Below are positions 11,409 through 28,359 of a DNA stretch of 33,503 nucleotides, piece after piece. The notes beneath the pieces were generated by a model. It saw nothing but the letters and a program-made list of their open reading frames with translations. It was not told where the DNA came from and did not search any database. The stretch lies in the NCBI GenBank assembly GCA_937127375.1, contig CAKZMA010000789.1, positions 1 to 33,503 on the forward strand. The letters are read 5' to 3'. The stretch comes from an uncultured Coleofasciculus sp. Its GTDB lineage: Bacteria > Cyanobacteriota > Cyanobacteriia > Cyanobacteriales > Coleofasciculaceae. Positions within the stretch are counted from its first letter, which is position 1; the number at the start of each line of letters is the position of its first letter. The position numbers and the translations under genes were made by a program.

Positions 11409-12953
11409 TCAGAGGAGCGAGCTGGGGGAAGTTTGACCATAAACTGGCAACGTAAAATAAAAGGTACTTCCAGAACCTAGGGTACTTTCCGCCCAAATTC
11501 CCCCCCCATGTTGCTGGATAATGCTGCGGCAAATCGCTAATCCTAAACCGGTACCTCCTTTTTGGCGGGAATCGGAAACATCGACTTGCTGAAATCGCCC
11601 AAAGATGCGTTCAAGGTGTTCCGTGGGAATTCCTCGTCCTTGGTCGGTAACGTGAAATAAAATACAATCTGACTGATGTTGCACACCCACGGTGATCGTG
11701 GTATTTCTCTCAGAAAACTTGATCGCATTACTCAACAGATTCGTCAGGGTTTGAATAATAGTATCAGGGGCAACATAGACTTGAGCTGATAGGGGAGTCA
11801 CCTGGATAGCAATTCCCGCCGCCTCTGCGATCGCATCTATCGCTTCTACCGAATGTTTGATTAAATCTGCCACATCGCAGACTTCCTTAACTAGCGTCAC
11901 TTGACCAAAATCCAAGCGTTCTAAACTGAGGATGTCATTCACCAACCGTCCTAAGCGATCGCAGTCTGTTACCGCAATATCTAACATCCGTTTGGCTTTG
12001 TCGGGTTGATTATCATAGACTCCCATCTTAAGCAAACCCAGAGAACCGCGCATTGAGGTGAGTGGGGTGCGAAGTTCATGACTAACCAGGGAGATAAATT
12101 CATTTTTCATCCGTTCCACAGCCTGACGTTGGGTAATATCTTCGCCAATACTCATGATTCCTGCGATCGCGCCAGTAATATCTCTTAGCACGGTATTATT
12201 CCACGCAATCAGTCGTTCTTCACCGGATTTGGTCAGAATGGAGTTCTGGTAGTAGGCGTAGCTGTTGTGGTATAAAAGTTCATGGAAAGTTTGTTTAAGC
12301 TGCGGCTGATCGGAGGATGGGATAAATGTATTGAACCAGTTTTTCCCGAAAACTTCGGCTGAAGTATAGCCAGTTAAGCCTAAGCCAAAGGGGTTCATAT
12401 ACTCCACATCCCCCTGCCAATCTAAGCCAACAACCAGTAGTTGCACATTCTCTAACAGCGATCGCCATCGACGTTCCGTTTCTTGCAGGATCTGTTGGGT
12501 TTGATGACGCACGCGAATCTCTTGCTGTAAGCAGGCATTTTGTTCGGTGAGTTGCTGGGTTAACGCCCGCAGTTGCAGGTGAGTCTGGACGCGAAGTAAC
12601 ACCTCTTCAAGCTGAATTGGCTTGCTGATATAGTCTACAGCACCCAGCTTTAGCCCCTTAATCTTGTAACTAGGATTCGCGCGATCGGTAACGGCTGTCA
12701 TAAAAATAACTGGAATATCTTGGGTTTCCTCCTGCGCTTTTAAACGACGACAGACTTCAAACCCGTCCATTTCTGGCATCACCACATCCAACAAAATTAG
12801 ATCCGGTAAGGTTATTGCCACAATTTTTAACGCTTGGACGCCACTTTTAACCGCAAGGACGTTAAATCCTGCTTTCATTAAAAAATCTGAGACTAATTGC
12901 AGATTAGCCACAGTATCATCAACCAATAAGATTTGGGGCAAGGAAGAGGACAT
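11409..12953 (-). CDS. Receiver-PAS histidine kinase (hybrid)
   Basis: A 514-residue cytosolic kinase starting at ATG 12953 (MSSSLPQILLVDD). A GTG 13 codons upstream (12992) is in frame, but the family begins at the receiver. Order: receiver domain (about 8-125; ILLVDDT, phospho-acceptor Asp in LILLDVVMPEMDG, Lys in DYISKP), coiled-coil linker (about 127-165), PAS domain (about 170-280; WQGDVEYMNPFGLGLTGYT), HisKA (FISLVSHELRTPL with the phosphorylated His) and HATPase (N box NLLSNAIKF, G boxes DQGRGIP and GGTGLGLAI). All catalytic motifs are intact. The receiver-first layout suggests it is an acceptor in a phosphorelay from another kinase. It has no membrane segment, and the signal is unknown. 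Confidence 0.92.
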   Translation of the reverse strand: MSSSLPQILLVDDTVANLQLVSDFLMKAGFNVLAVKSGVQALKIVAITLPDLILLDVVMPEMDGFEVCRRLKAQEETQDIPVIFMTAVTDRANPSYKIKGLKLGAVDYISKPIQLEEVLLRVQTHLQLRALTQQLTEQNACLQQEIRVRHQTQQILQETERRWRSLLENVQLLVVGLDWQGDVEYMNPFGLGLTGYTSAEVFGKNWFNTFIPSSDQPQLKQTFHELLYHNSYAYYQNSILTKSGEERLIAWNNTVLRDITGAIAGIMSIGEDITQRQAVERMKNEFISLVSHELRTPLTSMRGSLGLLKMGVYDNQPDKAKRMLDIAVTDCDRLGRLVNDILSLERLDFGQVTLVKEVCDVADLIKHSVEAIDAIAEAAGIAIQVTPLSAQVYVAPDTIIQTLTNLLSNAIKFSERNTTITVGVQHQSDCILFHVTDQGRGIPTEHLERIFGRFQQVDVSDSRQKGGTGLGLAICRSIIQQHGGGIWAESTLGSGSTFYFTLPVYGQTSPSSLL

Positions 12954-13104
12954 GAACGGACTGGCATGACTGAATTTTGCAAAAAGCGGCACGTTGCCAT
13001 TTTTATTGTTGCATAAGTGGGTGACTTTGAACTCAGACCTTGCGCCATTTTCAGTTCGCCTATTTTTTATCGTTCAATTGTCCTTTTCCTGTAATTTTTC
13101 CTAA

Positions 13105-15565: not shown

Positions 15566-17716
15566 TCAAGCGCCGATAGCTTGGCGTAACCATTGAATTT
15601 GACCCAACTTTTCCGTTTTCTTGCTCAGTGTGATCGGGATTTCAATCACAAACTCTGTGCCGATACCCACTTGAGAATTACAGGTAATTTTTCCTTTGTG
15701 TTTCTCAATAATTTGATAACTTACGGCTAATCCCAATCCTGTCCCTTGTCCTACAGGTTTTGTGGTGAAAAACGGTTCAAACAAATGCTCTTGCAAATGA
15801 GCAGGAATACCTAAACCATTATCGGAAATCCGAATAATCACAGTTGAGTTTAACTCAGCTATTTCCGTACTAATCCTAATCTGGGGTATAAAGGAATCAT
15901 TCTGCTGGCTTTTTTCGTCTAACGCCTCAATCGCATTACCGAGAATATTGATAAACACTTGATTCAGTTGCCCCGGATAACACTCTACTTTAGGTAACGT
16001 ACTCAATTGTTTATTCACTTCAATAGCGGGTCTTTTAGGCTTTTTATTGAGGCGATTCTGTAAGAGGATCAAGGTACTCTCCAACCCTTGATGTAAATCA
16101 GTTGTCTTCATCTGGGCTTCATTCAGGTGCGAAAAATGCTGGAGCGATCGCACAATGTCTTGAACCCGAACAACGCCTTCTCGAATCGAGTTGAGGGCTT
16201 TGGGAAAATCTGTCCTGAGAAAGTCAAGCTCAACCGCTTCCATTTGCTCTTGAATCGGGGCAACAGGGTGAGGATAATACTGTTGATAGAGATCGATCAA
16301 TTTGAGCAGATCACACCCATATTGATGGGCAAAGCCAACATTTCCGGAAATAAAACCAATGGGATTATTAATCTCATGGGCAATTCCCGCTACCAATTGT
16401 CCCAAGGATGCCATTTTTTTTGTTTGGACTAACTGCGCTTGGGCATTTTTGAGTTCACACAATGTAAGTTCTAACTGATACGCTTTTTTCCGTTCCCGCG
16501 CTTCTGACTCTCGCAAAGCCTCCTCCGCTTGTCTGCGATCGCTAATATCCCGATGAGTCCCTGTCATCCTTACTGGGTTCCCTGCTTCATCCCACTCAAA
16601 GACTTTACCGCGAGACAAAATCCACTTCCATTTCCCCGTTTTACATCGCATCCTAAATTCGACTTCATAGATAGGAATCAATCTATCTATATAAGCCTTT
16701 AATACGGCTTTCACTCTTGATAAATCCTCAGGATGCACCAATTGTTCAAACGCCTGAAAATTATCGTCGATTTCGTATTCTGCATACCCCAGCATCGCTT
16801 TCCACTGCGGATTAAAATAAATATCTCCAGTGATTAATTGCCAATCCCATAATCCCAAATCACTCCCAGATAACGCCATTTGCAGTCGTTCTTCGGAAAT
16901 GCGTAAGGCGGATTGGGTTAACACCTGTTCTGTAATATCATTTAGGGTTCCTGTGGTTCCCGAAACCGTACCATCGGCGGCAAAATTTATCCGCGCATGT
17001 ACCTCCAACCAACGAATTTCACCCGATTTCGTCAGGTAGCGTACCGTAGGGCGACAGGATTGTTGGACTCCAGTAATCAGCGCATCAAAGTTGTTTCGTC
17101 CCTTTTGCCAGTCATCCGGATGAATACCGTTTAAAAAGGATGTTCCGATACTTTCAGCAATTGAAAAGCCAGTAATTTCTGTCCAAGCCCGATTCAGGAA
17201 TGTCCAATGTCCATGGGTATCAGTTTGGAAAATGACTTCTTTGACATTATCGATAACCGACTGATATTTTTCCTGATTCAGACGTTGGCATTCTTGGCGT
17301 TTCTGACTGTCAATCGCATGACGAAATGCCCGAATTAAGCGGTAACTTTTGAGATTTTCCGTTACCTGATCATCCGGTGTCCCCGCTTGGATAACTTGCA
17401 GGGTTAAGGGTTCATCCTGGTTAGCCCTTAATCCGAGAATTGGCAGGGTTAAGCCCAACTGTTTTATCTGAGTAACCGTATCGAAAACGTGAGGATCAGC
17501 GTGGGACAAATGAACGACGATAAGATCAAACGCTTCCTGACTTAATCGGGTTAGGGCTTGACAACTCTGCCTAACTTGTTGAATAATAAACGAATATCTA
17601 ATTTCAGAACATAATCCTTCTCCCAATAGTTTTATCGTTTGGTAACCATCTTCGACGATGAGAATCTTCAGCGATATAGTGTTGGGGTTTTGGGTAGGGT
17701 CTAGCACCGATAACAT
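15566..17716 (-). CDS. PAS-PAS histidine kinase with pseudo-receiver
   Basis: A 716-residue soluble sensor kinase. The N-terminal 125 residues look like a receiver domain (ILIVEDGYQTIKLLGEGL), but the place of the phospho-acceptor reads LIVVHLSHADP, with His where Asp is expected, so it is likely a pseudo-receiver. Two PAS domains follow (about 150-270 with FLNRAWTEITGF, and about 275-400 with GDIYFNPQWKAMLGY) with PAC motifs ending in ITEQ and ISDRR. The kinase core starts after a coiled coil: MASLGQLVAGIAHEINNP with the phosphorylated His, then N box NILGNAIEAL and G boxes DNGLGIP and GTGLGLAVS. This core type is shared with the 24019-28359 kinase (HEINNP, YQQYYP). The partner regulator is unknown. 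Confidence 0.92.
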   Translation of the reverse strand: MLSVLDPTQNPNTISLKILIVEDGYQTIKLLGEGLCSEIRYSFIIQQVRQSCQALTRLSQEAFDLIVVHLSHADPHVFDTVTQIKQLGLTLPILGLRANQDEPLTLQVIQAGTPDDQVTENLKSYRLIRAFRHAIDSQKRQECQRLNQEKYQSVIDNVKEVIFQTDTHGHWTFLNRAWTEITGFSIAESIGTSFLNGIHPDDWQKGRNNFDALITGVQQSCRPTVRYLTKSGEIRWLEVHARINFAADGTVSGTTGTLNDITEQVLTQSALRISEERLQMALSGSDLGLWDWQLITGDIYFNPQWKAMLGYAEYEIDDNFQAFEQLVHPEDLSRVKAVLKAYIDRLIPIYEVEFRMRCKTGKWKWILSRGKVFEWDEAGNPVRMTGTHRDISDRRQAEEALRESEARERKKAYQLELTLCELKNAQAQLVQTKKMASLGQLVAGIAHEINNPIGFISGNVGFAHQYGCDLLKLIDLYQQYYPHPVAPIQEQMEAVELDFLRTDFPKALNSIREGVVRVQDIVRSLQHFSHLNEAQMKTTDLHQGLESTLILLQNRLNKKPKRPAIEVNKQLSTLPKVECYPGQLNQVFINILGNAIEALDEKSQQNDSFIPQIRISTEIAELNSTVIIRISDNGLGIPAHLQEHLFEPFFTTKPVGQGTGLGLAVSYQIIEKHKGKITCNSQVGIGTEFVIEIPITLSKKTEKLGQIQWLRQAIGA

Positions 17717-18196: not shown

Positions 18197-18886
18197 TTAC
18201 TGGGTCAAGCCATGTTCAAGAGCATAACGGACTAACTCGGTGCGGCTATTGGTTCCAGTTTTGCTAAACAAGCGACTGACATATTTCTCCACATTGCGGA
18301 CACTGGTTTCCAGGCGGCGGGCAATTTCTTTATTCATCAGCCCTTGGGCAACCAAATCCAGAACACTTTGCTCTCGCGGCGTAAAGTCAATGCGGATGGG
18401 TGGGGGAGTTTGGGAAATATTACCCCGTTGAGCCAACATTTCACGAATCGCAGTTAGCTCTTTTTCGATATTCCCTAAATCCGCCGTACCCGCCGTTTCC
18501 TGTGCAGTAGCAGCACGACGTTCCAGTAAATTCTCGACAATGGCGACCAATTCATCCGTATCAAATGGTTTGGACAGATAAGCATCACAACCTGCCTGAT
18601 ACCCTTGAATCCGGTCTGTAGTCATACCTCTAGCCGTGAGAAAAACCACTGGCAGTGATTTGAAACGCGGGTCTTCTCGCAGCTTCTGAAGAAACTGATA
18701 CCCATCTACTTGAGGCATCATAATATCGGTGATTACAAGATCAGGTGTTTTTTGTTGCAGCATTTGCCATGCATCATTCGCATTACTGGCAACATCGACG
18801 GTAAAACCACCCACCTCTTCTAAATAGTCTTTGACCGCCTCCCGAACGCCCGGTTCGTCATCGACCAGTAACAGTTGTGCTGACAT
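18197..18886 (-). CDS. NarL/LuxR-type response regulator, Rre1/Ycf29-like
   Basis: A 229-residue two-domain transcription factor. The receiver (1-120) has LLLVDDEP, phospho-acceptor Asp in LVITDIMMPQVDG, Thr in VFLTARG and Lys in YLSKPF. A variable linker (about 125-160) precedes a LuxR-type helix-turn-helix (about 165-229: FTPREQSVLDLVAQGLMNKE, then VEKYVSRLF). Overall it resembles the conserved cyanobacterial Rre1 and chloroplast Ycf29 regulators, partners of the Hik2/Hik34-type stress kinases; this assignment is from memory of the family, not an alignment. The gene is divergent from glgC with about 270 bases between. A purine-rich AAGGAAGTGAGAG precedes the ATG. Confidence 0.85.
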   Translation of the reverse strand: MSAQLLLVDDEPGVREAVKDYLEEVGGFTVDVASNANDAWQMLQQKTPDLVITDIMMPQVDGYQFLQKLREDPRFKSLPVVFLTARGMTTDRIQGYQAGCDAYLSKPFDTDELVAIVENLLERRAATAQETAGTADLGNIEKELTAIREMLAQRGNISQTPPPIRIDFTPREQSVLDLVAQGLMNKEIARRLETSVRNVEKYVSRLFSKTGTNSRTELVRYALEHGLTQ

Positions 18887-21127: not shown

Positions 21128-21975
21128 GATACTGGGATGGCTGGCTTGACCGAGTGACCCGCAAGCGTAATCATCGGATCAAAGATGGTATCAACAAAGC
21201 GGCAAGGTTAATTAGGGGTTGCTGAATAAGTCTTGTGGTGGGGAGAGGCAATAGGGAATAGGCAATGGGCAATGGTTTCAAGCCTCTGTCGAGGGAAAAT
21301 TTGGCGCTGGCGGAGGCACAAATTCCAGGGTTTTGACGGTTATGATGTAAAAACCTTGCACTTGTTGGGTAGGAAAATGGCTTAAAACCCTTATCTGGTC
21401 TAGCTTCCACACTCATGCAGCAAGCCCTAATTATCAATCACTGCCTTAAATACGGCATAAGTACGATTGTTTTAGGCTGGAATGAAGGATTTAAGAACAA
21501 CGCCAATATAGGTAGATTGAATAATCAGAAATTTGTTCAAATACCCCTAGGCAAACTTAAAGACCGATTGCAGCAACTGTGTGAAATTCATGGTATTCAC
21601 TTAGAAGTAACAGAAGAAGCCTACACCAGCAAAGCTAGCTATCTTGATGGAGACTCCCTGCCTAAGTTTGGCGAAAAGCCAGACGGGTGGAAAGCATCAG
21701 GAAGACGGGTAAAACGTGGTTTATATCGCAGCAGTGATGGCTCGATTGTCAATGCTGATTTAAACGGTAGTGCCAATATTTTAAGAAAAGTAGCCAGCAA
21801 GTTAGGCATTGACCTAAACCGACTGAGTAGACGGTGTTTGACGACCGTAGCGAGAGTTAGATTGTGGGAATTGCCACAGTCTACTCTGTCAGCAGAATCC
21901 CCGTGTATGCGAGACCGGGGAGTGTCAACTCTCTTGTCTCCCGGAACAGAATACCGGGAAATCCACACTGGTTAG
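21127..21975 (+). pseudogene. tnpB: TnpB (OrfB) gene remnant split by a MITE
   Basis: The first piece (about 21127-21214) encodes GYWDGWLDRVTRKRNHRIKD and INKAARLI. The second (from 21434) continues INHCLKYGISTIVLGWNEGF, then NNANIGRLNNQKFVQIPLGK, VTEEAYTSKASYLDGD and NADLNGSANILRK. If the 213-bp insertion and one 6-bp duplicate are removed, the reading frame continues exactly through LIINHCL. VTEEAY should hold the RuvC Glu and NADLNG the last catalytic Asp. The zinc-finger cysteines of many TnpBs are absent, as in a known subgroup. The N-terminal half is missing, so no functional RNA-guided nuclease is expected. The frame ends at 21975. Confidence 0.85.
21215..21427. mobile_element. 213-bp MITE inserted in tnpB
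   Basis: The insertion begins GGGGTTGCTGAATAAG and ends with the near reverse complement (CATGCAGCAAGCCC), so it has imperfect terminal inverted repeats of about 20 bases. It is flanked by the direct repeat TAATTA (21209-21214 and 21428-21433). No transposase is encoded in it. Removing the element with one repeat copy restores the tnpB frame, which proves the boundaries. The helper family was not identified. Confidence 0.85.
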
Positions 21976-24018: not shown

Positions 24019-27000
24019 ATGAGTCAACTTATGAAAAGATTTGATTTAAAAAAGTCCCAATGGATGAACATTGCGAAAAAGAATGATCAGCCTGGAAAAT
24101 TATCATGGACAGGCAATAGTCCGGAGCAACTAAAATGGATGCGGATATTGTATGAAACACTTCCCTGCATTTATTTCACCCTGAATTTTGATGGGGTGAT
24201 TTTGGATGTAAGTCAGTTCGGTGCAGCCTATTTTGGGTATGATTTTTGGGAGTTAGTTCAAAAGCCAATTCATCGGCTTTTTGATCCAGAAAGCCAATAC
24301 CGATATCAAGCCCTATTGACTCATCTAAGCCAGCATCCGACTGAAATTCATCACTGGGAAACTCGGTTCATTGGTAAAGATGGTAGGATAGTCTGGCTTA
24401 AGGCAAGAATTCGTTTGATTCCGATAACTGCCTCAAATTCGGTGATCAGCTTAGTTTGTGAACAGATGAGGACAGCTAAATCACAAGCGTCGCCCCCAAC
24501 TCCTGATCGCAATAATAATGAAGCTGTTTTAATCACCAATGACAGCGGTGATTTTACCTATATTTGTCCTAATATAACCTCTATTTTTGGTTATTCTTTG
24601 TCGGAAGTCCGCGCTCTGGGTAATATTACTCACCTGCTGGGCAACTTACCCTGGAATTGGCAAGCTTTAGCTGTCGCGGGAAATGTTCGTAATGTTGAAG
24701 TAGAAATTACCGATAAGACAGGCAAACCCCGTACTGTATTGGTTAATGTTAAGCCAGTTTCGATCCAGGGAGGAACAATACTTTATCGCTTGCGTGATAG
24801 CACGAATCGCCAGTTCGTTGCAGACAAATGGCAACCCGATGCTGATCGGTTAGCACCTAGCCTAGCCGATCCAACAACGAACCAACTAAGTAAGACTAAC
24901 TACACCCAAGACATTCTGCAAGAGAGTGAAGACCGATTCCGCACGATGGCAGATAATGCCCCTGTGCTGTTATGGATGTCCGGTACAGATGGGTTATGTA
25001 CGTTTTTTAATCAGGGCTGGTTGCGGTTTACTGGACGCACTCTGGAACAAGAACTGGGTAATGGTTGGGCTGAGGGGGTGCATTCTGACGACTTATCATC
25101 TTGTTTAGAGACGTATCAGCAGGCGTTTAATGCTCGTCAAGCTTTTTGTATGGAATATCGCTTGCGACGAGCCGATCAAGAATATCGCTGGATTTTAGAT
25201 ACAGGAACGCCTCGATTTACTCCTAGTGGTCAGTTTTTAGGGTATATCGGATCGTGCATCGATATTACCGATCGCAAGCAAACCGAAACAGCCGTGCAAC
25301 AGCAATATCTGCGGGAACGGTTAATTGGGGCGATCGCGCAACGGATTCACTATTCCTTAGACTTAGACGAGATTCTGAATACCACCGTCGCCGAAGTGCG
25401 GCAAATTTTGATGTGCGATCGCGTGCTAGTCTTTCGCCTCTATGGAGATGGGAGTGGTGTCGTGGAAGTCGAATCCGTTGACGTGAACTCGAAGCCGATT
25501 TCCGGAACCGTGATCAACGATCGCTACTTTGCCGAAGACTATATCCACCTTTACCAAAAAGGGCGTGTCCAATGCGTCGAAGATATTTATAACGCTGGGT
25601 TAACTGACTGTCATATTGAATTATTAGCTCAATTCCAAGTGAGAGCCAACCTAGTTATCCCCATCGTCCATGAGGAGCGCTTATGGGGATTGCTGGTAGC
25701 TCAACAGTGCCAAACCCCCCGAAAATGGCAACCTGGGGAAATCGAGTTGCTGCAAACGCTCTCCACCCATACCGCCATTGCCATTCAACAATCGGAACTC
25801 TATCAGCAAGCCCAAACCGAAATCCACCAACGCCAACAAGCCGAAGCAACCCTGCGACAACAAGTTCAGCGAGAGCAGTTAGTCGGGGCGATTACTCAAC
25901 ACATCCGTCAATCGCTGAATTTAGAGGACATTCTCGAACGCACCGTGGCGCAAGTGCGACAGGTTCTGCAAACCGATCGGGTGATTATTTTGCGCTTCAA
26001 TCCCGACTGGAGTGGTGAGGTGGTGGTTGAATCCGTAGACTCGCGCTGGTGTTCGATTTTAGGCAACCATATATACGACGCCTGTTTTGAGAAAACCTAC
26101 CTCTCGCTCTACCAACAAGGTCGAGTCAGAACCCTAGATGATATCTATGCCGGTAATCTGAGCCAATGTTATATTGACTTACTCGCCAAGTTCCAGGTAC
26201 GGGCTAACCTAGTTGTGCCAATTGTCCACAGTAACAAACCCCTACCTACCCCACAGTCCCAAGCTGATGTCGAAACACCCAGCCAAAGCCCAACCCGCTT
26301 GTGGGGACTACTGATTGCCCATCACTGTAGCCAACCCCGGAACTGGCAGTCATTTGAGATTGACTTACTCGACGGGTTAGCCTCTCAGGTGGCTATTGCC
26401 ATTCAACAAAGCCAACTCTACGAACAGGCAACATCTCTGTTCTGGCGAGAGCGAGTCCTCAATCAAGTGACTCAAGCCATCCGCCGTTCGTTGGACGTAA
26501 CCACGGTTTTTGAGACAGCCGTCCAAGAGATTGGCGAACTCTTACCCGTGGATCGGGCGGAAATTGTCCAATATTTGCCGGAACGCCAGTCTTGGTTATC
26601 GGTGGCAGACTATCGCCGCTCTCTAGAGGATAGGAGTACACTGGGACAAGAAATTCCGGATCAAAATCATCCTTGGGCTGAACGACTCAAGCAATTAGAA
26701 ATTATTCGCATCGAGGATACGAGTACATTTAACCAAGGTTTAGCGCAAGACTTTCCAGGAGCTTGGTTATGGGTTCCCTTGCACTTTAATTCTCAGATAT
26801 TAGGGAGTTTAACTTTAGGCAAAACCAATCATCCCTACTTCTGGCAAGACTCAGAGGTGGAATTAATCGTCGCCATTGCCGACCAAGTCGCGATCGCGAT
26901 CGGTCAAAGTCAACTGTACCATCAGGCTCAGTATCACCTCAAACGAGAACAAGCGATCAATCATCTAACTCATGGGATTCGTTGTTCGCTCGACTTACAA

Positions 27001-28359
27001 ACGATTTTTTCTACCGCCACCCAGGAAATTGAGAGCCTTTTGCAAGTGGATCGCGCTCAAATTATCCAACATAAGCCCGAACGCCAACTCTGGGTGAATG
27101 TAGCCGAGTCCTGTCGGGGTGACTGTTTGCCCAAAGCCTTGGGTGTAGAAATTCCTGATGCTAATAATCCCCTGGCTGAACGAATCAAACGCTTAGAAGT
27201 GGTGCGGATTCAAGATACCCGGTGTTTGGCAGACGCCACCAATACAGGCGTCGCGCAACAGTTTCCGGGGGCGTGGTTGTTGGTTCCCCTGCACTGTGGT
27301 AACTCGGTTTGGGGCGCTCTAGGGCTGATGATGGATAATCGAGCCTACAATTGGCAAGACGCCGAGGTCGAGTTGATTTGTACCATCGCCGATCAATTAG
27401 CGATCGCACTCCAACAAGCGGAACTCTACAAGCAAAGTCGCAAGGCGGAAGCCAAAGCCTTAACCCACGCCCAACAGCTTGAGCAAACTGTTGCCAAACT
27501 CCAGAAAACCCAAGCCCAGTTGGTGCAAAGTGAAAAAATGTCCAGTTTAGGGCAGTTAGTCGCCGGAGTTGCCCATGAAATCAATAATCCAGTTAACTTT
27601 ATTTATGGTAATTTAGTCCATGCCAGTGACTATGCTACTGATCTTTTAGGGTTAATCGAACTCTATCAACAGCAATATCCCCAGAACACACCCGAAATCC
27701 AGTCTGAAATGGACGCGATCGATCTGGAATTTTTGATAGAAGACTTGCCTAAACTGCTGGATTCGATGAAAGTCGGAGCAGAACGGATCTGTGAAATTGT
27801 CTACTCCCTGCGGAATTTTTCCCGTATCGCTGAAGCGGAAATGAAAGCCGTAGATATTCATGAGGGGATTAATAGTACCCTGATGATTCTGCGAAATCGA
27901 CTCAAAGCACGAGGCGAGAATCCGGGTATTCAAGTGATTCAAGCCTACAGTGAACTGCCCAAGGTTGAATGTTACGCCGGACAGATTAACCAAGTGTTTA
28001 TGAATTTGTTAGTCAATGCCATTGATGCCATTGATGAGCAAAACACAAAGCGGTCATTGGACGAACTTAAAGCCAACCCTAGCACAATTCGAGTGCAAAC
28101 TGAAATTGTAGATAACCAAGAGGTAGCGATCCGAATTATTGATAATGGTCCCGGAATGACACAGGACGTTCAGCAACAACTGTTCCATCCCTTCTTTACC
28201 ACTAAACCGGTGGGGACGGGGACAGGTTTAGGATTATCAATTAGCTATCAAATCGTTGTTGAAAAACATGGAGGTCAGCTTTTCTGCCACAGTAATTTAG
28301 GACAGGGAACCGAGTTTGTTCTCCAAATTCCAGTGCGTCAACATCTGGGGAAAGGATAG
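24019..28359 (+). CDS. Multi-PAS/GAF histidine kinase with probable cyanobacteriochrome GAF domains
   Basis: A 1446-residue soluble sensor kinase. Order: three PAS domains (about 40-150, 165-270 and 300-420, the last ending in DITDRKQ), four GAF domains (about 435-590, 615-795, 810-960 and 975-1125), a coiled coil (1125-1165) and a kinase core. The core has His1186 in GVAHEINNPVNF, N box NLLVNAIDAI, and G boxes DNGPGM and GTGTGLGLSIS. GAF1 contains the CBCR/phytochrome-like segment DCHIELLAQFQVRANLV with Cys531-His532. GAF2 has a DXCF motif (Asp687, Ala688, Cys689, Phe690) and a second cysteine, Cys717, in QCYIDLLAKFQVRANLV, 28 residues later. That spacing equals the two chromophore-linked cysteines of TePixJ (494 and 522). 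GAF3 and GAF4 lack these cysteines. It is therefore a candidate bilin photoreceptor kinase; chromophore binding is an inference. Confidence 0.88.
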   Translation: MSQLMKRFDLKKSQWMNIAKKNDQPGKLSWTGNSPEQLKWMRILYETLPCIYFTLNFDGVILDVSQFGAAYFGYDFWELVQKPIHRLFDPESQYRYQALLTHLSQHPTEIHHWETRFIGKDGRIVWLKARIRLIPITASNSVISLVCEQMRTAKSQASPPTPDRNNNEAVLITNDSGDFTYICPNITSIFGYSLSEVRALGNITHLLGNLPWNWQALAVAGNVRNVEVEITDKTGKPRTVLVNVKPVSIQGGTILYRLRDSTNRQFVADKWQPDADRLAPSLADPTTNQLSKTNYTQDILQESEDRFRTMADNAPVLLWMSGTDGLCTFFNQGWLRFTGRTLEQELGNGWAEGVHSDDLSSCLETYQQAFNARQAFCMEYRLRRADQEYRWILDTGTPRFTPSGQFLGYIGSCIDITDRKQTETAVQQQYLRERLIGAIAQRIHYSLDLDEILNTTVAEVRQILMCDRVLVFRLYGDGSGVVEVESVDVNSKPISGTVINDRYFAEDYIHLYQKGRVQCVEDIYNAGLTDCHIELLAQFQVRANLVIPIVHEERLWGLLVAQQCQTPRKWQPGEIELLQTLSTHTAIAIQQSELYQQAQTEIHQRQQAEATLRQQVQREQLVGAITQHIRQSLNLEDILERTVAQVRQVLQTDRVIILRFNPDWSGEVVVESVDSRWCSILGNHIYDACFEKTYLSLYQQGRVRTLDDIYAGNLSQCYIDLLAKFQVRANLVVPIVHSNKPLPTPQSQADVETPSQSPTRLWGLLIAHHCSQPRNWQSFEIDLLDGLASQVAIAIQQSQLYEQATSLFWRERVLNQVTQAIRRSLDVTTVFETAVQEIGELLPVDRAEIVQYLPERQSWLSVADYRRSLEDRSTLGQEIPDQNHPWAERLKQLEIIRIEDTSTFNQGLAQDFPGAWLWVPLHFNSQILGSLTLGKTNHPYFWQDSEVELIVAIADQVAIAIGQSQLYHQAQYHLKREQAINHLTHGIRCSLDLQTIFSTATQEIESLLQVDRAQIIQHKPERQLWVNVAESCRGDCLPKALGVEIPDANNPLAERIKRLEVVRIQDTRCLADATNTGVAQQFPGAWLLVPLHCGNSVWGALGLMMDNRAYNWQDAEVELICTIADQLAIALQQAELYKQSRKAEAKALTHAQQLEQTVAKLQKTQAQLVQSEKMSSLGQLVAGVAHEINNPVNFIYGNLVHASDYATDLLGLIELYQQQYPQNTPEIQSEMDAIDLEFLIEDLPKLLDSMKVGAERICEIVYSLRNFSRIAEAEMKAVDIHEGINSTLMILRNRLKARGENPGIQVIQAYSELPKVECYAGQINQVFMNLLVNAIDAIDEQNTKRSLDELKANPSTIRVQTEIVDNQEVAIRIIDNGPGMTQDVQQQLFHPFFTTKPVGTGTGLGLSISYQIVVEKHGGQLFCHSNLGQGTEFVLQIPVRQHLGKG

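Follow-up and report, generated by a model that had tools for sequence, protein, structure and literature searches.

The second GAF domain (GAF2) of a 1446-residue histidine kinase from an uncultured Coleofasciculus sp. is very probably a cyanobacteriochrome (CBCR) photosensor of the DXCF type, in which Cys717 would carry phycocyanobilin (PCB) or phycoviolobilin (PVB), Cys689 would form a reversible adduct and the photocycle would be blue/green. Judged from its sequence and a structural model, GAF2 appears to be a clear but ordinary addition to a large known family. What is new beyond a further DXCF sensor is the RcaE-type GAF domain present at the same slot of an orthologous kinase, L120, from a related genus. 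The kinase gene lies in a 33,503-nucleotide stretch of DNA (the window), and its features and those of its surroundings are listed in Table 1.

Table 1. Features of the kinase gene and of neighbouring regulator genes (window positions).
Feature	Position	Strand	Basis
Hybrid sensor ORF, 1446 aa, intact	24019..28359	+	ORF list; Pfam
Kinase domain order: PAS x3 - GAF x4 - HisKA - HATPase_c	24019..28359	+	Pfam
GAF1, single-Cys CBCR-type GAF	25360..25785	+	PF01590 match; motif positions; trees
GAF2, DXCF-type CBCR GAF (predicted)	25918..26403	+	PF01590 79.5 bits; phmmer; model; tree
DACF motif, residues 687-690, with Asp687 and second Cys689	26077..26088	+	Motif positions
Canonical Cys717, then Tyr718 (codon TAT)	26167..26172	+	Motif positions; codon reading
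Proline-rich loop insertion, 20 residues, Cys-free	approx. 26233..26292	+	Alignment; model
GAF3, without bilin cysteines	26494..26901	+	PF01590 match; motif positions
GAF4, without bilin cysteines	26992..27411	+	PF01590 match; motif positions
Histidine kinase core: HisKA 1177-1270, HATPase_c 1322-1440	27547..28338	+	Pfam
Response-regulator/kinase protein	11409-12992	-	Name read from sequence
Response-regulator/kinase protein	15566-17716	-	Name read from sequence
LuxR-type regulator	18197-18886	-	Name read from sequence

Motif, fold and phylogeny of GAF2

A DXCF CBCR is recognised by a GAF domain of the CBCR/phytochrome fold, a canonical Cys that forms the stable thioether at C3-1 and a second Cys within an Asp-Xaa-Cys-Phe motif; the GAF domain alone suffices and a PHY domain is not needed. 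The Pfam scan found no PHY or PAS_2 match in the 1446-residue kinase. The codons of Cys689 and Cys717 are at nucleotides 26083-26085 and 26167-26169, and the two residues are 28 apart, a spacing identical to that in the TePixJ chain DPCFREHWVEAYRQGRIQATTDIFKAGLTECH. The preliminary description had read DACF (Asp687-Phe690) and Cys717 at the TePixJ spacing, and the motif positions in the ORF and the TePixJ chain both agree with it; the interval that it gave, 25300-26430, spans GAF1 as well as GAF2. The cysteines of GAF2 are at residues 678, 689, 717 and 770. Cys678 is located 11 residues ahead of Cys689, in a stretch of normal length with no insertion.

In a phmmer search against PDB chains, GAF2 did not fall outside the CBCRs, and the top matches were CBCR GAF domains: PPHK (E 1.3e-40), miRFP670nano from NpR3784 (E 1.9e-37), RcaE (E about 1e-29 to 1e-30) and the TePixJ chains (E about 1e-27 to 1e-28). 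The E-values to PPHK and TePixJ therefore indicate homology and not a chance match. An AlphaFold model of GAF2 built from 29 homologues had a mean pLDDT of 90.7 and the fold of a CBCR. CBCR GAF domains came first when the model was searched with Foldseek, and in the VIA comparison it matched TePixJ (4glq) with a Z of 24.4 (1.9 Å over 149 residues) and miRFP670nano with a Z of 25.6.

Two trees were built, one of 142 rows and a careful one of 52 rows, with TePixJ represented by a partial chain of 89 residues. In both trees GAF2 was found among DXCF domains including TePixJ. The GAF2 orthologues formed a clade of 7 rows with a support of 100/100, and every member has the DXCF motif and the canonical Cys. 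Deep branches in the DXCF/PPHK/RcaE part of the tree were weakly supported. Sequence search, fold model, tree and conservation of the orthologue cysteines all agree with the earlier proposal of a DXCF domain in a histidine kinase.

The blue/green DXCF GAF domain of TePixJ (PDB 4glq, 3vv4, 2m7u) shares with GAF2 the DxCF motif, the canonical Cys and its spacing, the fold and a Leu at the C+5 tuning site, with 39% identity over aligned residues. GAF2 has Cys-Tyr where TePixJ has Cys-His, its C+8 residue is Phe and not Leu, its loop is 20 residues longer, and it belongs to a histidine kinase whereas TePixJ is a chemotaxis transducer. By sequence, the closest solved structures to GAF2 are the PPHK GAF (PDB 6oap, the green-absorbing Pg structure) and NpR3784, the parent of miRFP670nano; both are without the second Cys that GAF2 has.

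The HisKA domain of the kinase scored 24.8 bits with Pfam, slightly below the 26.9-bit cut-off, but the H-box VAGVAHEINNP is there from residue 1174. No response regulator adjoins the kinase gene; the closest lie on the opposite strand, at a distance of about 5 kb or more. By eye, the protein encoded at 15566-17716 is a PAS histidine kinase with a core like that of the main kinase (VAGIAHEINNP...), and the two sequences suggest a related kinase subfamily nearby. The ORF at 21415-21975 on the plus strand looks, again by eye only, like the C-terminal portion of a TnpB-like protein of transposons, in comparison with a 431-aa ORF at 4090-5385 of L184. The whole assembly (G000, 9.5 Mb) contains 121 PF01590 GAF matches, many of them in multi-GAF proteins.

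Predicted photocycle and chromophore supply

We infer the chromophore, the covalent bonds, the colours and the signal direction of GAF2 as follows. Cys717 would hold PCB, likely isomerised to PVB, at C3-1. The blue absorption of the 15Z dark state would come from a reversible bond between Cys689 and C10. Light would isomerise the 15,16 bond, upon which the second thioether would break and the green-absorbing form would arise. The role of the second Cys and of PVB in DXCF CBCRs has been described (PMC11284453).

A Phe on beta2 and another on the helix have been linked to teal-DXCF and red/green tuning (PMC5240096); at the D-ring site, the choice between Leu and Tyr brings blue or red shifts (PMC7504144). 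The corresponding residues of GAF2 are Val668 (beta2), Phe725 (helix) and Leu722 (the Tyr/Leu tuning site, with the common Leu). A blue/green photocycle is favoured over blue/teal because the beta2 Phe, which belongs to the trapped-twist pocket of teal and red/green domains, is Val668 in GAF2, though the helix Phe725 is kept; few rules stand behind this sequence-based prediction.

A domain that is DXCF by descent could have another photocycle, such as blue/teal or blue/orange, and we consider this somewhat unlikely. In the blue/orange variant PCB would be kept unisomerised, and a pocket with Tyr718, Phe725 and Val668 would set another geometry. The helix Phe725, which is Leu in TePixJ, is consistent with such a change, and so is Tyr718, since all orthologues seen have His after the canonical Cys and the Tyr is private to this species within the clade. 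An engineered His-to-Tyr replacement at the same site of NpR3784 stacks on the bilin (PMC6336887), so that a modest tuning effect of Tyr718 is possible by analogy. Against another photocycle, the teal-linked beta2 Phe is missing and Cys-Tyr is common: 52 of 139 DXCF domains have Tyr after the canonical Cys, 85 have His and 2 have Gln. These 139 domains all have a canonical Cys and were gathered by similarity to GAF2, so that the fractions are no census. The Tyr that the preliminary description placed after Cys717 is indeed there (codon TAT); Cys-Tyr as an oddity of the whole family was rejected, and Tyr718 reads as a His-to-Tyr change private to this lineage.

A proline-rich insertion of about 30 residues had also been described, and proved to be shorter. 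The Pro-to-Trp stretch before LWGLLIAHHC has 27 residues versus the usual 7, that is, 20 extra. In the AlphaFold model the loop connects a beta strand at model residues 102-110 with another at 133-142, and its 10-residue blocks have a mean pLDDT of about 68-70 versus 94-97 in neighbouring blocks. Loops of 16-37 residues and unrelated sequence were found in 15 other DXCF domains of the sample. Three orthologue loci (L090, L091 and L092) are among the loop-bearing domains; other orthologues are without the loop. The simplest reading of the model is a flexible, tolerated hairpin. The unusual tuning suggested from Cys-Tyr and the insertion was not borne out, given the frequency of Cys-Tyr and a low-confidence loop of which many DXCF domains have a counterpart of unrelated sequence.

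It is very improbable that GAF2 has lost bilin binding and now has a purely structural or redox role. The two cysteines could make a redox pair, and neither heme oxygenase nor ferredoxin-dependent bilin reductase was detected in the 90%-complete G000 assembly; the same searches found both enzymes in 34 of 34 relatives (completeness at least 90%, contamination at most 5%). The orthologue clade has, however, conserved the Asp motif together with both cysteines, and the host presumably makes PCB, since its genome encodes 8 full-length phycobiliprotein subunit genes. The heme oxygenase gene comes after a VWA-like gene in two relatives. Here the VWA-like gene occupies C253:2494-3732, 122 bases short of the contig end at 3854, so that a gap in the assembly is the most likely reason for the missing heme oxygenase. 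Unlike that of heme oxygenase, the absence of bilin reductase is not accounted for by a contig end: the gene beside it in one relative has hits here of only about 50% identity, with no clear orthologue.

GAF1 and the probable exchange at the GAF2 slot

GAF1 has the Asp motif DRYF (501-504) and the canonical pair Cys531-His532, and the motif region covers window positions 25519-25611. PPHK was its nearest match (phmmer, E 9e-57), and it was placed closest to PPHK and NpR3784, with which it shares the DxYF/CH single-Cys motif. The GAF1 orthologues formed their own clade (support 100/99) and are single-Cys throughout, with DxYF, DxHF or DxYL and CH. The relatives examined have kept the combination of single-Cys GAF1 and dual-Cys GAF2, with one exception, L120. 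GAF1 probably senses longer wavelengths, and both domains would pass their signal to the kinase core through helical linkers, GAF3 and GAF4. The 1446-residue protein is best read as a histidine kinase regulated by light through two inputs, with a GAF2 of the blue/green type.

Extended red/green (XRG) CBCRs have a WxDxxL motif and no second Cys. GAF2 has IYDACF where WxDxxL is expected, and the red/green clade (AnPixJg2, NpR6012g4, Slr1393g3) was apart from it with a support of 100/99. Insert-Cys CBCRs (UG1, UG2, VO1, UB1) resemble GAF2 in being CBCR GAFs that have a variable loop and two cysteines. In them the second Cys is carried by an inserted loop that precedes the Asp motif, whereas the GAF2 insertion (about 739-758) is Cys-free and downstream of the canonical Cys. 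The green/red RcaE GAF (PDB 8k9o, 7ckv) has the same fold as GAF2, but is without the DXCF motif and has a Leu after the canonical Cys; GAF2 was outside the RcaE-type clade (support 100/100), and an RcaE/CcaS-type assignment was rejected.

A kinase tree built on GAF4 and the kinase core grouped the window with L121 (G011) and L120 (G004), with a support of 96/96. The window and L120 share about 65-80% identity in PAS3 and GAF1, in the linker that leads to GAF2, and in GAF3, GAF4 and the kinase, but only about 28-40% at residues 660 to 779. The L120 domain in the GAF2 slot (G004:C257) is without the Asp and the second Cys, has Cys-Leu and was located in the RcaE clade. Forcing it together with GAF2 of the window and its L121 counterpart was 58 log-likelihood units worse, with a p-AU of 0.0003 that is indicative, the grouping having been picked after viewing the tree. 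That GAF2 itself is of the insert-Cys, red/green or RcaE green/red type, as its loop insertion and the L120 domain might suggest, is hardly credible in view of its Cys-free insertion after the canonical Cys, the absent WxDxxL, the separate clades and this rejected grouping.

The comparison of sequences suggests that, in the lineage of L120, an RcaE-type domain likely took the place of the GAF2 sensing core. Further upstream, the PAS region of the L120 frame contains a single TGA, and this copy may be split or carry a sequencing error. Because an RcaE-type GAF stands in L120 between flanks that are so similar, GAF2 behaves as a sensor module that can be exchanged; the slot is probably a naturally exchangeable colour module, of DXCF type in the window and L121 and of RcaE type in L120, the swap being known from this one case. 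The literature searched, by titles and abstracts, contained no directly matching paper on natural CBCR domain shuffling.

If the slot is exchangeable, related cyanobacteria would have given one signalling pathway a new tuning through the exchange of one domain on a conserved chassis. The orthologue set is of more use than the single domain: it is a natural experiment on how CBCR colour inputs are coupled to kinase output, and on what makes a swap work, since its kinases share one chassis but differ in the type of the domain (DXCF or RcaE) and in whether they have the loop.
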